Of a stretch of DNA of 64,000 nt, positions 1-25,137 are shown one piece after another; position 1 is the stretch's first letter, and every line of letters begins with the position of its first letter. The DNA comes from Acidobacteriota bacterium. Lineage in GTDB: Bacteria; Acidobacteriota; Vicinamibacteria; Vicinamibacterales; UBA2999. The position numbers and the translations under genes were made by a program. The notes under the pieces were generated by a model. That model did no database searches. It was not told the origin of the DNA and saw only the letters and a list, made by a program, of their open reading frames with translations. The stretch is from NCBI GenBank assembly GCA_963169195.1, contig CAUJDN010000051.1:1-64000 (forward strand), read 5' to 3'.

Positions 1-254
<254 letters not shown>

Positions 255-391
255 GAGTCTGGTTCGTCGAGGCCCCGCGAGGGGCGTTCGGCGGCCTTCT
301 CGACGATCGATCTGGCATTGCCGACGGTCTGGTGTGCGCGCCTATCTAGTTTTGAAGGAACCAGGGCTGCCCTGATGGGCAAGGGCGCCAG

Positions 392-403
392 GTTCTTTGA
401 CAA
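392..403 (+). promoter_or_regulatory. boxA-like antitermination site in the 16S-tRNA spacer
   Basis: GTTCTTTGACAA matches the boxA element of bacterial rRNA leaders and spacers, which binds NusB/S10 in the transcript and protects rRNA transcription from Rho. It lies about 60 bases before tRNA-Ile. The same word recurs at 738-749 and 771-782, which supports a functional role over chance. The rest of the 253-464 spacer shows no other gene. Confidence 0.6.
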
Positions 404-464
404 GTTCGAGTGAAGGATACGGGACGTCCGTGGCCCTGGAACGCCGGGGCTTGGGCGGTCACGG

Positions 465-541
<77 letters not shown>

Positions 542-557
542 TTCTCCAACGTCATCC

Positions 558-633
558 GGGGAATTAGCTCAGCTGGGAGAGCGCCTGGTTTGCAACCAGG
601 AGGTCACCGGTTCGATCCCGGTATTCTCCACCA
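558..633 (+). tRNA. tRNA-Ala (anticodon TGC)
   Basis: A complete cloverleaf of 76 nt: acceptor GGGGAAT pairs with ATTCTCC (one G-U), D stem GCTC/GAGC, anticodon stem CCTGG/CCAGG enclosing the TGC anticodon, T loop TTCGATC, and an encoded CCA at 631-633. It is the second spacer tRNA, 16 nt after tRNA-Ile. Confidence 0.98.
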
Positions 634-737
634 GCCTTCGCACGCGGCGGGCGCCGCGAGCTTCGGCTCGGCAGGCCCGGTTAGCGAAGGCTGTCGCGCC
701 GGAGTCCTGAGGACGGAGGCGGGCAACAAGTTTCCGG

Positions 738-782
738 ATTCTTTGACAACTGAATACTCTGCAATCGGTAGTTCTTTGACCA
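738..782 (+). promoter_or_regulatory. two boxA-like sites before 23S rRNA
   Basis: ATTCTTTGACAA (738-749) and GTTCTTTGACCA (771-782) are two further boxA-like words in the tRNA-Ala to 23S spacer. The second overlaps the outer part of the 23S processing stalk. A boxA just upstream of 23S is usual in bacterial rRNA operons; two within 45 bases is more than usual. Confidence 0.55.
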
Positions 783-808
783 CACACACGCAGTGTGCGG
801 AAATGAAA
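777..808 (+). other. 5' strand of the 23S rRNA processing stalk
   Basis: TGACCACACAC (777-787) and GGAAATGAAA (799-808) are exact reverse complements of GTGTGTGGTCA (3818-3828) and TTTCATTTCC (3798-3807) beyond the 3' end of 23S. Together they form the long duplex that brings the two ends of the 23S precursor together and is normally cut by RNase III. The complementarity is seen directly; the RNase III role is established for this structure in bacteria. Confidence 0.8.
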
Positions 809-812
809 ACTT

Positions 813-3796
<2,984 letters not shown>

Positions 3797-3797
3797 A

Positions 3798-3828
3798 TTT
3801 CATTTCCCGCTCCGCGGGTGTGTGGTCA
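3798..3828 (+). other. 3' strand of the 23S rRNA processing stalk
   Basis: TTTCATTTCC (3798-3807) and GTGTGTGGTCA (3818-3828) pair with the sequences at 799-808 and 777-787. The remainder of the 23S-5S spacer, to about 4068, is GC-rich and holds no tRNA or other gene that I can recognise. Confidence 0.8.
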
Positions 3829-4068
3829 GACAACTATCGCATTGCACTCGCCTGGCTCCCGTCCGGAGCCCCGGCGAAGCCTCGCCGAAGCCGCGTCCGC
3901 GGCCGGGGCGGGGGAGTATTCAGCTGCCAGGGAGCGCTCTTTACAACAAGATGCTCTGGGACGATCCGCCTTCGCGCCTCACCGCGCCGCGGCGCCACCG
4001 GCCGATATCTGGCCAGGCGCGCCGCCAACACGGCACGCGGCCGATGGGGGAACCCCAGACACCAAGTT

Positions 4069-4187
<119 letters not shown>

Positions 4188-20617: not shown

Positions 20618-21645
20618 CCGAGATGCTGAGAGCGCAACTGGCGGGTGCCGCGCCCATCCGGCGGGCCGCCATCAAGAGCCTGGCCACCTATGTGCCTCCG
20701 CGCGTGCTGACCAACGCCGACCTCGAGAAGATGGTGGAGACGTCGGACGAGTGGATCATGCAGCGCACGGGCATCCGCGAGCGTCACATCGCGGAGCCGG
20801 GGGTGGGGACGAGCGACCTGGCAAAGGAGGCGGCCATCGAGGCCATCCGCCGCGCGGGCCTCACGCCCGCCGACATCGACCTCATCATCGTCGGGACGGT
20901 GACGCCGGACATGCTGTTCCCCAGCACGGCGTGCCTGCTGCAGGACAAGATCGGGGCGACGCGCGCGTGGGGATTCGACCTCTCGGCCGCGTGCTCGGCG
21001 TTCAACTACGCGCTGACCGTGGGCAGCCAGATGGTGGCGGCGGGCGCGGCCACACACGTGCTGGTGGTCGGCGCCGACGTGATGTCGAGCATCATCGATT
21101 ACACCGATCGCGCGACGTGCGTGCTGTTCGGGGACGGCGCCGGTGCGGTGGTGCTGGGCGTGTCGGATGACCCGTCGACGGGCATTCTGGACTTCGAGCA
21201 CCAGGTGGACGGCAGCGGCGGTCCGGCGCTGTGCATGCCCGCCGGCGGGAGCCGGCAGCCGGCGTCTCACGAGACCGTCGATCAGCGCCTGCACTTCGTC
21301 AAGCAGGAAGGACAGGCCGTGTTCAAGTTCGCGGTGCGCAACACCGGCGAGATCTGCGAGCGCCTGCTGCAGCGCAACCAGGTCACGGCCAACGACCTGG
21401 ACCTGTTCGTCTCGCACCAGGCGAACCGCCGCATCATCATGTCCGTGGCCGAACGCATCGGGATGCCGGAGGACAAGGTCATCATCAACATCGACCGCTT
21501 CGGCAACACGACCGCCGGGACGATCCCGCTGGCCCTCAATGATGCCGTCACCAGCGGCCGGCTGAAGCGCGGCGACCTCATCCTGCTCGCGTCGGTGGGC
21601 GCGGGGTTCACGGTCGGTGCCGTCCTGGTCCGCTGGGCCTACTGA
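20614..21645 (+). CDS. fabH: beta-ketoacyl-ACP synthase III
   Basis: A 343-residue condensing enzyme that joins acetyl-CoA (or another primer) to malonyl-ACP to start fatty-acid synthesis. The catalytic triad is visible: C127 in [11 protein letters not shown], the His of SHQANRRI and the Asn of [26 protein letters not shown] is the family N-terminal signature. The TTG at 20614 overlaps the ruvB stop and has AAGGGG 6 bases upstream; an ATG at 20623 is an alternative. Placement of fabH straight after ruvB is unusual to me. Confidence 0.95.
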
Positions 21646-22054
21646 GCGCCCCGGCCCGCGGGCGCTCTCCGTCGCGTACTCACATTCTTGAACGGTACGG
21701 CCCATCGAGCCTGTGCCGTTTCAAGACAATCAATTTCGCGCGCAGACGTTTCTGTCTGGCTAACCCTTTGAGAACCAAGCGGTTGCATTGGTGTTCCAAT
21801 TCGGGCCATCGATTCGCAGCTGTTCCATGTTGAAGAAAGTGCGATAAGTCTCTTCGTTTCAGCAACTTGGACTGTTTAGTCTGCCCTGGGCGTGACAGTC
21901 CGTGTGCCAGTGAAGGTCAGGCCTGCCACTTGTCGTCACCCGGCCGGGATGGCGAAGGATCCCGCAACTGCATAGCGGTGCACAGATTTCCGCGCCCTCC
22001 GGCGACCCGCTGGAGTTGGCCAGCACCTTGCTCCATGCCGGGCCGGTAACGATT
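21646..22054. other. 409-bp gene-free spacer, less GC-rich, before the S8 protease
   Basis: I see no credible coding region on either strand. The stretch about 21680-21890 is visibly richer in A and T than its surroundings. A stem with one bulge can form between TGAACGGTAC (21689-21698) and GTGCCGTTTCA (21713-21723), with no T tract after it. The spacer probably carries the promoter and leader of the downstream protease unit; a small RNA cannot be excluded. Confidence 0.5.
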
Positions 22055-23680
22055 ATGTTCACGCGTCTCACCTCCATGATTACGTTGTTGTGCGGGATCG
22101 CCCTGCTGCCGGTGGTGGCGCTCGGGCAGCCCGCCGCCCGCCTCGACCGCGCGCTGGCCGAGGCGCGGCAGGAAGGTCGGCCGTCGCGGGTGATTGTGAA
22201 GGCCAAGCCGGGGTACCGAGCCTGGCTGACGCAGCAACTCGCTGCGCAGGGCCGGCACGTCGGGGCCGAGCACGAGTCGATCGACGCGCTGTCCGTCGAG
22301 CTCACGGCGGCCGAGGTCGAGGCCGTGTGTGCCGACCCCGCGACGGTTGGATGCTCCGTGGATGCGGTGGTCTCTCCCAGCGCGTCGTTCTTCGGGGTCG
22401 GCGCGGACGACCGGTTCGCCAGCAACACGGCCCTTGCGGCCATGGGGCTGTCCACCCGGCGCCGCGCCGGCGCCGGGGTCACGGTCGCGCTCATCGACTC
22501 GGGCATTCATCCTTCGGCCGCCTTTGCGGGCCGCATCAAGGCCTTCTTCGATTTCACGCAGGCCGATATCACGCGCTCGGCGCCCCACGACGACTACGGC
22601 CACGGCACCCACGTGGCGGGCCTCATCGGCGGCCGGCAGCCGGTGGACGACCGGGCCATGCAGGGGGTGGCTCCTCTCGTCCAGTTCGTGGGCATGAAGG
22701 TGCTCGACGCGACGGGACGCGGCCGGACGAGCGACGTCATCCGCGCGATTGAGTTCGCGGTCGCCAATCGGCGCCGCCTCGGCATCGACATCATCAACCT
22801 GTCACTGGGCCATCCGATCTTCGAGGCGGCCGCTGCCGATCCGCTGGTGCAGGCCGTGGAGCAGGCCGTGCGGGCGGGCCTCATCGTCGTGGCTTCGGCC
22901 GGCAACTACGGCGTGGGCGCGAACGGGGAGGTGGGATTCGCCGGCATCACGTCGCCGGGCAACGCGCCGTCGGCCATCACGGCCGGTGCGTTCAACCACA
23001 ACAGCACGTCCGGCCGCAGCGACGACCGCGTGTCGCCGTACAGCTCGCGCGGCCCGACGTGGTACGACGGACTCGCGAAGCCCGACTTCGTCGCGCCCGG
23101 CCACCTGCTACCGTCGGAGCTCGCGCCGGGAAGCGCGCTGGCCGAGTCGTATCCCGGCCTCGTCGTGACCGGCTCTTCGGGCCGGTCCTACCTGCGCCTG
23201 TCCGGCACGAGCATGGCGGCGGGCGTGACGAGCGGCCTGGTGGCACTCCTCAAGGACGAACTGCCCGCGCTGACGCCCAACCTGGCGAAGGCCCTGCTGC
23301 AGTTCACGGCGCTGCCGCTCGCCGACGAGAACGGCCTGCCATATCACCGGCTGGCGCAGGGCACCGGCGCGGCCAACGGCGAGGGCGCGCTGCGCCTGGC
23401 CTCGGCCATCGATCGCCGCGTGACCGACGTGGAGCAGACGTGGCTGTCGATGCCGCACTGCGACGACAGCCTGCGGGTCGACGGCGAGGCCACTGCGTGC
23501 CAGACCGTCGTCGGCGACGAGGCCTACGCGTGGGCGGGCAACATCGTGTGGGGCGACAACATCGTGTGGGGCGACTCCGTCTTCTACAACCTGCCGGTGT
23601 GGGGCCTCAACATCGTGTGGGGCGACAACATCGTGTGGAGCGCTGGCGCGGCCACTCAGGCGGATGGAGGGCAGCGCTAA
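22055..23680 (+). CDS. S8 family serine peptidase (subtilase) with C-terminal NIVWGD repeats
   Basis: An exported subtilisin-like protease of 541 residues from the ATG at 22055 (22016 and 22076 are other possible starts). A signal peptide (ITLLCGIALLPVVALGQ) is followed by an inhibitor-I9-like prodomain (about 35-100). The catalytic triad is D148 (VALIDSGIHP), H183 (YGHGTHVAG) and S386 (LSGTSMAAG). The last 40 residues contain four NIVW units, mostly as NIVWGDNIVWGD, with VWGLNIVWGD. This tail is encoded by near-perfect DNA repeats. I recall such tails in Acidobacteriota subtilases; their role is unknown. The stop TAA overlaps the ATG of the first GNAT gene (TAATG). Confidence 0.92.
   Translation: MFTRLTSMITLLCGIALLPVVALGQPAARLDRALAEARQEGRPSRVIVKAKPGYRAWLTQQLAAQGRHVGAEHESIDALSVELTAAEVEAVCADPATVGCSVDAVVSPSASFFGVGADDRFASNTALAAMGLSTRRRAGAGVTVALIDSGIHPSAAFAGRIKAFFDFTQADITRSAPHDDYGHGTHVAGLIGGRQPVDDRAMQGVAPLVQFVGMKVLDATGRGRTSDVIRAIEFAVANRRRLGIDIINLSLGHPIFEAAAADPLVQAVEQAVRAGLIVVASAGNYGVGANGEVGFAGITSPGNAPSAITAGAFNHNSTSGRSDDRVSPYSSRGPTWYDGLAKPDFVAPGHLLPSELAPGSALAESYPGLVVTGSSGRSYLRLSGTSMAAGVTSGLVALLKDELPALTPNLAKALLQFTALPLADENGLPYHRLAQGTGAANGEGALRLASAIDRRVTDVEQTWLSMPHCDDSLRVDGEATACQTVVGDEAYAWAGNIVWGDNIVWGDSVFYNLPVWGLNIVWGDNIVWSAGAATQADGGQR
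23539..23642 (+). repeat. in-frame tandem repeat coding NIVWGD
   Basis: The 18-base unit AACATCGTGTGGGGCGAC occurs in two directly adjacent pairs (near 23539-23574 and 23608-23642), separated by a spacer coding SVFYNLPVWGL. The codons are nearly identical between copies, which suggests recent expansion or strong selection. It lies at the extreme C-terminus of the S8 protease. Confidence 0.85.
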
Positions 23681-24351
23681 TGGACAAGATGGAATATCAA
23701 CCGAACCTTCAGCCTGCGGTCGCGACGGTCCAGCCGGCGCGCCCTGCCATCCTTCCAGCCACGACACTCGACTGGCGGCAGCAACTGCCGACGCTGGTCG
23801 GCACGCGCGTCACGCTGCGCGAGCTCAAGGTGTCGGACGCGCCGGCTCTGCTGGCGACGATGACGGCGGAGGAGGTGGCGCGGTTCATCTCGACGCCGCC
23901 CGACACCGTCGAGGGCTTCGAGCGCTTCATCCAGTGGGCGCAGCGCGAGCGCGAGTACGGGCGCTACGCCTGCTTCGCCGTGGTGCCCCACGGGATGACG
24001 CATCCGATCGGTCTCTTCCAGCTCCGCCAGGTCGCGGCCGGTTTCACGACGGCCGAATGGGGTTTCGCCATCGCCTCCGCGTTCTGGGGCGGCGGCTACT
24101 TCGTCGACGCGGCCCGGATGGTCGTGGACTTCGCGATCGAATCGGTCGGCGTGACACGGCTCGAGGCGCGGTCGGCGGTCGCCAACGGCCGCGGCAACGG
24201 CGCGCTGCGCAAGCTGGGCGCCGTGCAGGAAGGCGTCCTCCGCCGGGCGTTCCGCAAGGACGGCCGGCAGCTCGATCAGGCGCTCTGGTCGATCCTCGCC
24301 GCCGACTGGCGCCAGGCGAAGTCCGTGTGGCGCCCGGAGATCGTGCACTAG
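23680..24351 (+). CDS. GNAT family N-acetyltransferase (RimJ/RimL-like), copy 1
   Basis: A 223-residue acetyltransferase. After about 30 residues of Pro/Ala/Gln-rich leader, the GNAT domain begins LDWRQQLPTLVGTRVTLREL. The acetyl-CoA-binding region corresponds to EWGFAIASAFWGGGYFVDA and RLEARSAVANGRGNGALRKLG, the layout of RimJ/RimL proteins that acetylate N-terminal or other amines. Its ATG overlaps the protease stop, so translation of the two is coupled. A close paralogue follows. The acetyl acceptor is unknown; the protease or its repeat tail is one guess from context. Confidence 0.88.
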   Translation: MDKMEYQPNLQPAVATVQPARPAILPATTLDWRQQLPTLVGTRVTLRELKVSDAPALLATMTAEEVARFISTPPDTVEGFERFIQWAQREREYGRYACFAVVPHGMTHPIGLFQLRQVAAGFTTAEWGFAIASAFWGGGYFVDAARMVVDFAIESVGVTRLEARSAVANGRGNGALRKLGAVQEGVLRRAFRKDGRQLDQALWSILAADWRQAKSVWRPEIVH

Positions 24352-24383
24352 GCGCGCCATCGCCTGCAGCCGTGAAGCGCACC

Positions 24384-25073
24384 ATGCCACGTCCAAGCTC
24401 GAAGCGGCCGCCCGTGAGAAAGCCGGCGCTCCAGCCGGAGCCGGAGCGCCACGCGCTGGCCTCGTCGCCGGTGGCGGCCGCGGTGGCGCAGCTGGACTGG
24501 CAGCAGGGGCTGCCCACCTTCCGGCTGGCCACGTGCACGCTGCGCGAAGTGGAGATGACGGACGCCGCGTCGCTGATGGCACACCTGAGCAACGAGGAGG
24601 TCTCGCGGTTCATCCTTCCGCCGCCACGCTCGGTACAGAGCTTCGAGAACTACATCCTGAAGGCGCTCCGTGATCGCCAGGCCGGCCACTATGCGTGCTT
24701 CGTCGTGGTGCCGGACGGCATGGACGATCCCGTCGGCGTGTTCCAGCTCCGGCAGCTCGAGGCGGGCTTTGCCACGGCCGAGTGGGGGTTCGCCATCGGC
24801 TCCGCGTTCTGGGGTGCGGGCCTGTTCATGCAGTGCGCAAAGCAGGTCCTCGAGTTCGCATTCGAGACGATGGGGGTGCAGCGGCTCGAGGCGCGGGCCG
24901 CGGTGATGAATGGGCGTGGGAACGGCGCCCTCAGGAAACTCGGCGCGGTGCAGGAGGGCGTGTTGCGCCGCTCGTTCAAGCGTCACGGGCAGTTCTTCGA
25001 CCAGGTGCTCTGGTCGGTCCTGGCCGAGGACTGGCGCCTGCAGCGAAGCGCGCGACGCGGTCGCGTCCACTAG
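24384..25073 (+). CDS. GNAT family N-acetyltransferase (RimJ/RimL-like), copy 2
   Basis: A 229-residue paralogue of the preceding gene. It shares the layout LDWQQGLPTFRLATCTLRE, the core EWGFAIGSAFWGAGLFM and the stretch NGRGNGALRKLGAVQEGVLR. The start is uncertain: ATG 24384 is used here, GTG 24372 is in frame; neither has a clear ribosome binding site, so it may rely on read-on translation from copy 1, 32 bases upstream. A strong terminator follows at 25101, which closes the protease-GNAT-GNAT unit. Tandem duplication is the simplest origin. Confidence 0.87.
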   Translation: MPRPSSKRPPVRKPALQPEPERHALASSPVAAAVAQLDWQQGLPTFRLATCTLREVEMTDAASLMAHLSNEEVSRFILPPPRSVQSFENYILKALRDRQAGHYACFVVVPDGMDDPVGVFQLRQLEAGFATAEWGFAIGSAFWGAGLFMQCAKQVLEFAFETMGVQRLEARAAVMNGRGNGALRKLGAVQEGVLRRSFKRHGQFFDQVLWSVLAEDWRLQRSARRGRVH

Positions 25074-25100
25074 ATCGGTCGGCCCAAGTCACACGGTTGG

Positions 25101-25137
25101 GCCCGGGCATTCCAGGGATGCCCGGGCCTTTTTTTCT
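25101..25137 (+). terminator. strong intrinsic terminator after the GNAT pair
   Basis: A perfect 10-bp stem (GCCCGGGCAT, 25101-25110, with ATGCCCGGGC at 25118-25127) closes a 7-base loop and is followed at once by C and eight T. It is the clearest Rho-independent terminator in the window. Confidence 0.93.

Follow-up and report, generated by a model that had tools for sequence, protein, structure and literature searches.

The subtilase Tk-SP of Thermococcus kodakarensis possesses a C-terminal extension, and in its ProN-Tk-SP form (PDB 3afg) it shares a pro-domain and a peptidase S8 core with the protease of the locus described here. In contrast to Tk-SP, the family of the latter carries a tryptophan hexapeptide tail of variable length and has a GNAT acetyltransferase or a MASE9-HD-GYP protein as its operon partner. 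On the acetyltransferase side, TTHA1799, PacT (PA3270) and PA3944 have the fold and the W-G-x-G acetyl-CoA region in common with the GNATs of this locus, although identity is about 25%; PacT, like these GNATs, lacks the serine at the NxxS position. PacT is described as a toxin partnered by an Xre antitoxin (PMC9561280), whereas here the partner is a protease. No Xre antitoxin of a PacTA-type toxin-antitoxin pair was found among the identified neighbours (the S8 protease, a second GNAT and QueA). A possible analogue for the MASE9-linked loci is LapD-LapG, a c-di-GMP-controlled periplasmic protease system, as both may combine c-di-GMP-type signalling in the cytosol with proteolysis beyond the inner membrane. 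That system, which includes no GNAT, uses a cysteine protease (LapG) and, as receptor, the degenerate GGDEF-EAL protein LapD.

Subtilases of the mycosin, PatA and IetS types also share the S8 core, but the protease studied here scores far below their curated cut-offs: 112.1 against 278.75 for the type VII mycosin (TIGR03921), 37.2 against 421.05 for the PatA/PatG RiPP protease (TIGR03895), and 56.1 against 900 for the IetS anti-phage peptidase (NF042956). T7SS, cyanobactin and defence genes were likewise absent from the identified neighbours in the window, the stretch of 64,000 nucleotides that was analysed. We rejected a RiPP precursor or maturation locus (PatA far below its cut-off, no enzyme of RiPP type among the neighbours identified in the window) and a defence system (PADLOC matches, subtilase and IetS, to the S8 core only and none to the GNATs). 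The original prediction had stated that its author knew of no such system, and no description was found in the open PMC literature, outside which lie most subscription journals and all preprints. Within the same literature, no paper contained NIVWG or the name MASE9, and none dealt with an operon of HD-GYP and a subtilisin-like protease with c-di-GMP.

The window derives from a member of the Vicinamibacterales, an order of soil and water bacteria within the Acidobacteriota, and begins with an rRNA operon (SSU end, two tRNAs, LSU and 5S; 1-4186). The unit itself consists of three plus-strand open reading frames: a pre-pro-subtilase of family S8 with a W-repeat tail (22055-23680; 541 residues; PF00082, E 8.8e-48), the RimJ/RimL-like acetyltransferase GNAT1, without signal peptide (23680-24351; PF13302, E 7.6e-22), and its paralogue GNAT2 (24384-25073; PF13302, E 7.8e-21), which forms its own orthologue group in the genus. 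The protease stop TAA (23678-23680) and the GNAT1 ATG share one A in a TAATG; between GNAT1 and GNAT2 lies a gap of 32 bases. At this coupling site (23665-23682, plus strand), an RBS-like GGAGG for GNAT1 precedes the TAATG and sits within the last codons of the protease (Gly-Gly-Gln-Arg), so that the protease owes its C-terminal GG to the ribosome-binding-site-like sequence of its neighbour. A terminator-like hairpin of 14 pairs with a loop of 3 and a T run follows on the plus strand (25099-25129). Upstream, fabH ends at 21645, leaving a plus-strand spacer of 409 bp (21646-22054) that probably contains the promoter, though no sigma-70-like site was found in it. The upstream neighbours RuvB and FabH and the downstream neighbour QueA all score above their NCBIfam cut-offs, with QueA followed by a GSU2086-family protein and TilS. 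No non-coding RNA in the unit exceeded its gathering score, the RNA search having returned rRNA and tRNA only. In the nearest relative, G004, the spacer is 76% identical over 379 bp and the first 62 bases 3' of GNAT2 are 95% identical, and three further members of the genus gave no match to the spacer. Hence the shared stop and start, the GNAT gap, the closing terminator, the opening spacer and the site between ruv-fabH and queA stand as originally predicted. The claim of a self-contained three-gene module was right as to the unit, but its three-gene make-up was seen only in the window's genus, in which the GNAT is duplicated; the widespread form is a subtilase plus one GNAT.

The protease belongs to peptidase S8 (PF00082, 163.5 bits against a gathering score of 21.8), with the match spanning the catalytic domain (22469-23326), and its Asp-His-Ser triad, D148, H183 and S386, is invariant in 35 aligned sequences. 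All its parts lie on the plus strand. A putative signal peptide of about residues 1-24 (22055-22126), with a hydrophobic stretch followed by ALG-QP, precedes a propeptide-like region (residues 25-117; 22127-22405) that AlphaFold2 models as strands and helices, at a mean pLDDT above 90 in residues 31-100. The whole model has a mean pLDDT of 86.1; its best fold match is ProN-Tk-SP, and pro-subtilisins are among the best matches. The tail (23540-23638; unit of 18 nt) reads NIVWGD three times, then NIVWSA and PVWG. Its first two NIVW units are modelled as four-residue strands (496-499 and 502-505) with GD turns, and pLDDT falls below 50 in residues 522-541. The tail had been described as a tryptophan- and aspartate-rich repeat with nearly identical codons; this is borne out by the 12 bases AACATCGTGTGG, which recur four times unchanged, once per NIVW unit, with the correction that the window's tail is short, with four such units. 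G004 carries 16 NIVWG units in a protease 87% identical overall, which indicates that array length changes fast. Of 193 class genomes, 40 contained the two-unit tail pattern and none its reversed control, and thus the tail occurs above chance.

Both GNATs are members of Acetyltransf_3 (PF13302; 78.9 and 75.6 bits against a gathering score of 25.4), and structure matching confirmed the GNAT fold (Foldseek E down to 6.6e-15). The GNAT1 model has a mean pLDDT of 90.4 with low confidence in the first 30 residues; its nearest structures are TTHA1799 (2z0z), PacT and RimJ, the fold matches include MccE and SpeG, and PA3944 is among the sequence relatives. The NCBIfam cut-offs for the RimJ, RimL and SpeG equivalogs were not reached (best 24.5 against 190 bits). 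Glycine or alanine occupies the NxxS serine position in 82 of 88 GNAT domains, and the glutamate of EWGF is kept in 86 of the 88. The missing serine was dropped as a sign of inactivity, since in the alignment PacT lacks it too. At a match strength of E up to 1e-25, the GNAT family appeared in 24 of 396 sampled phylum genomes, all of the window's order, among the matches listed, and its core clade is linked mostly to tailed S8 genes.

The pairing of the two proteins recurs well beyond the window. Scanning all genome contigs (66 stretches) and the 193 class genomes (40 matching) for NIVWGxNIVWG gave, after merging, 73 distinct tail genes picked by the NIVWG DNA motif alone. A GNAT lay directly downstream of 48, 18 had none, and 7 were censored by a contig or locus end, giving 48 of 66 uncensored genes; three of the 18 had only a MASE9 gene downstream, and one had MASE9 downstream and a GNAT upstream. 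An alternative count (52 with GNAT, 20 without and 12 censored; n=84) was set aside, as it includes loci chosen by their GNAT. Independently of the tail, 15 of 129 S8 places in 25 genomes (one of 130 rows, the fragment G032:C326, being omitted) had a same-strand GNAT no more than 2 kb downstream, where chance would give 0.05; the GNATs compared were the 44 strong matches in those genomes. Likewise, among the matches listed (E up to 1e-25), 38 of the 40 genomes with the tail pattern contained the GNAT versus 44 of the other 153 (Fisher p 5e-15, which overstates the association because the genomes are related). NIVWG-tailed proteases thus do prefer GNAT neighbours, the point on which the original prediction had staked itself. 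With the first in-frame ATG or GTG taken as the start, 25 of 52 junctions are overlaps of 1-4 bases, 10 have a gap of 0-2 and 13 one of 3-50 bases, and 4 are otherwise arranged; 32 of the 52 tailed proteins with a GNAT have GG within their last six residues. Within the order, no fewer than six families (f1, f2, f5, f9, f11 and f15) show the pairing. Judged from these gene arrangements, Vicinamibacterales-type Acidobacteriota possess the subtilase-GNAT unit as a conserved operon with translational coupling. Records suggesting spread to other phyla ('Cyanobacteria', 'Acidimicrobiia') were rejected as mis-binned titles, their contigs matching in length those of the order-mates G139, G017 and G106.

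The window's tail is one variant within a wider subtilase family. Nearly all of 112 S8 relatives carry W-repeat tails (NIVWG, TIIWA, TIIWG, GIAWS, NIVWS, NIIWT, RVIWG and others), a few being cut by contig ends or tail-less. Their partners, in loci chosen in several ways, were a GNAT in 52, MASE9 in 21, both in 1, an upstream GNAT in 2, none in 20 and censored in 16. Across the 129 S8 places, a MASE9 gene lay within 3.2 kb of 12 (0.06 expected), and MASE9 or HD_5 near at least 19, the HD counts being lower bounds as HD_5 rows were chosen by eye; a single place had both GNAT and MASE9. In the order, the gene next downstream of a tailed subtilase is usually a GNAT or else MASE9. The MASE9 partners are membrane proteins with HD_5, with or without GAF and GGDEF, and most full-length ones keep the HD-GYP motif intact (HHExxDGxGYP or HHExxNGxGYP). 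Furthermore, at least 6 of the 44 GNATs have a same-strand MASE9 or HD_5 neighbour (0.04 expected for MASE9). NIVWG tails occur in 46 of 52 GNAT-linked versus 3 of 21 MASE9-linked proteins. We claim no statistical tie between tail motif and partner type, as the tree offers 4 independent pairs and significance is lost with shared descent; a functional match between tail and partner is suggested rather than demonstrated. Five loci under Solibacter, Terriglobia, Bryobacter and Bryobacterales titles (L144, L146, L151, L153 and L187) form one S8 clade with NIVWG tails and no GNAT, with MASE9 nearby in L144, L146 and L187, which suggests that tailed subtilase loci gained the GNAT later.

A natural experiment separating GNAT function from the protease is provided by G002, a member of the same genus, with the unit at the same fabH-queA site. 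There, the protease is a pseudogene (G002:C8; L115 3153-4040; L260) in which about residues 178-477, the catalytic core, are unmatched, internal stops occur and tail fragments are left. Both GNAT frames are open and fall within the two orthologue groups of the genus. Their identity to the window is 63% for GNAT1 (69-71% in G001/G003) and 64% for GNAT2 (63-65%), compared with 86 for fabH (87-91, on a partial copy) and 68 for queA (72-77). Unless the loss is very recent, the open frames point to a use of the GNATs independent of the protease. Moreover, a profile search of G002 gave no HD_5 and no MASE9 match, which fits poorly with an obligate link to that signalling.

We tentatively favour, at somewhat less than an even chance, a reading in which the operon co-produces an outside protease arm and an interchangeable inside arm, either the GNAT or MASE9-HD-GYP. 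The subtilase, with its putative export signal and beta-repeat tail, would be co-produced with a RimJ/RimL-like acetyltransferase that stays in the cytosol; the protease would work beyond the inner membrane, where the tail may serve assembly, retention or recognition. The matching inside arm would be encoded in the downstream slot. In one form it would be a c-di-GMP-type membrane enzyme that senses a signal; in the other, a GNAT whose substrate is a cytosolic amine (the N-terminus of a protein or peptide, or some other small amine) and not the tail. The idea that GNAT and MASE9 share a single functional slot is inferred from gene position. Against this reading count the 18 of 66 tail genes without a downstream GNAT, and the one S8 place in 129 where both partners meet. 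Either way, the association gives a handle on three poorly assigned groups, namely tailed subtilases, a lineage-specific GNAT clade and MASE9 sensors.

Of the other explanations, the one that survives best, though we consider it unlikely, is that the GNAT has a protective or nutritional role, N-acetylating the peptides, amino acids or amines that come in once the subtilase has digested protein outside, in detoxification, immunity or catabolism. Orphan immunity genes outlive their partner, as the GNATs outlast the protease in G002, and MccE and SpeG are among the fold matches. PA3944, one of the sequence relatives, is described as acetylating polymyxin B (PMC8072286), but PA3944-type enzymes are only about 25% identical to the GNAT. 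In addition, a casual reading of the loci revealed no transporter or toxin gene as constant neighbour, and the MASE9 partner is left unexplained. Plain co-expression, by which the operon would merely set the dosage of two enzymes that a single condition calls for, without a shared pathway, appears less likely again. It agrees with the GNATs retained alone in G002 and with the tail genes lacking a GNAT, yet the recurrence in at least six families, always on the same strand in the 25 genomes and with variable gene order (the GNAT precedes the S8 gene in L127, L129, L135 and L166), argues for selection on the pairing.

The original prediction, in which the GNATs may modify by acetylation the protease, the tail or a product of cleavage, we regard as improbable, in spite of tight translational coupling kept over many loci and a core GNAT clade that goes mostly with tailed S8 genes. 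Acetyl-CoA is cytosolic, and tail acetylation is disfavoured because the window's tail contains no lysine and the protease carries a putative export signal. Tails are also lysine-poor overall (60 of 11,382 residues in 102 tails; 911 of 34,183 in catalytic domains), and on this composition the tail was ruled out as a lysine-acetylation target. Both GNATs remain intact in G002 despite the lost protease core, and GNAT-MASE9 pairs exist without the protease: in G027 and G031, which contain GNAT-MASE9/HD pairs, the sole S8 places match PF00082 weakly (best 3e-13 and 6e-14). Acetylation before export may still take place elsewhere in the pre-protein. Slightly more improbable still is a trans-envelope module in which W-repeat tails would assemble or shed repeat peptides, MASE9-HD-GYP would read the outside, the GNAT would mark a cytosolic product, and tail and partner would be matched.

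Several other arrangements were observed around tailed subtilases. In L241, L245-L249, L252, L257 and others, subtilases with TIIWAD, TIIWGD or GIAWSD tails are followed by MASE9-HD-GYP genes. A second type of S8 locus, in which a same-strand HD_5 gene lies at a distance of 0.8-2.6 kb, is present in 12 of the 25 genomes (G000:C65, G003:C124, G004:C101, G005:C19, G006:C16, G007:C53, G008:C197, G009:C10, G010:C117, G013:C137, G014:C10 and G015:C23). Fused GNAT-GNAT reading frames occur in L126, L127, L128 and L135, beside MASE9 genes or tailed subtilases. Finally, in L099 and L159 the tailed subtilase is followed by a response-regulator-like gene, and the next gene in L099 encodes a PAS histidine kinase.
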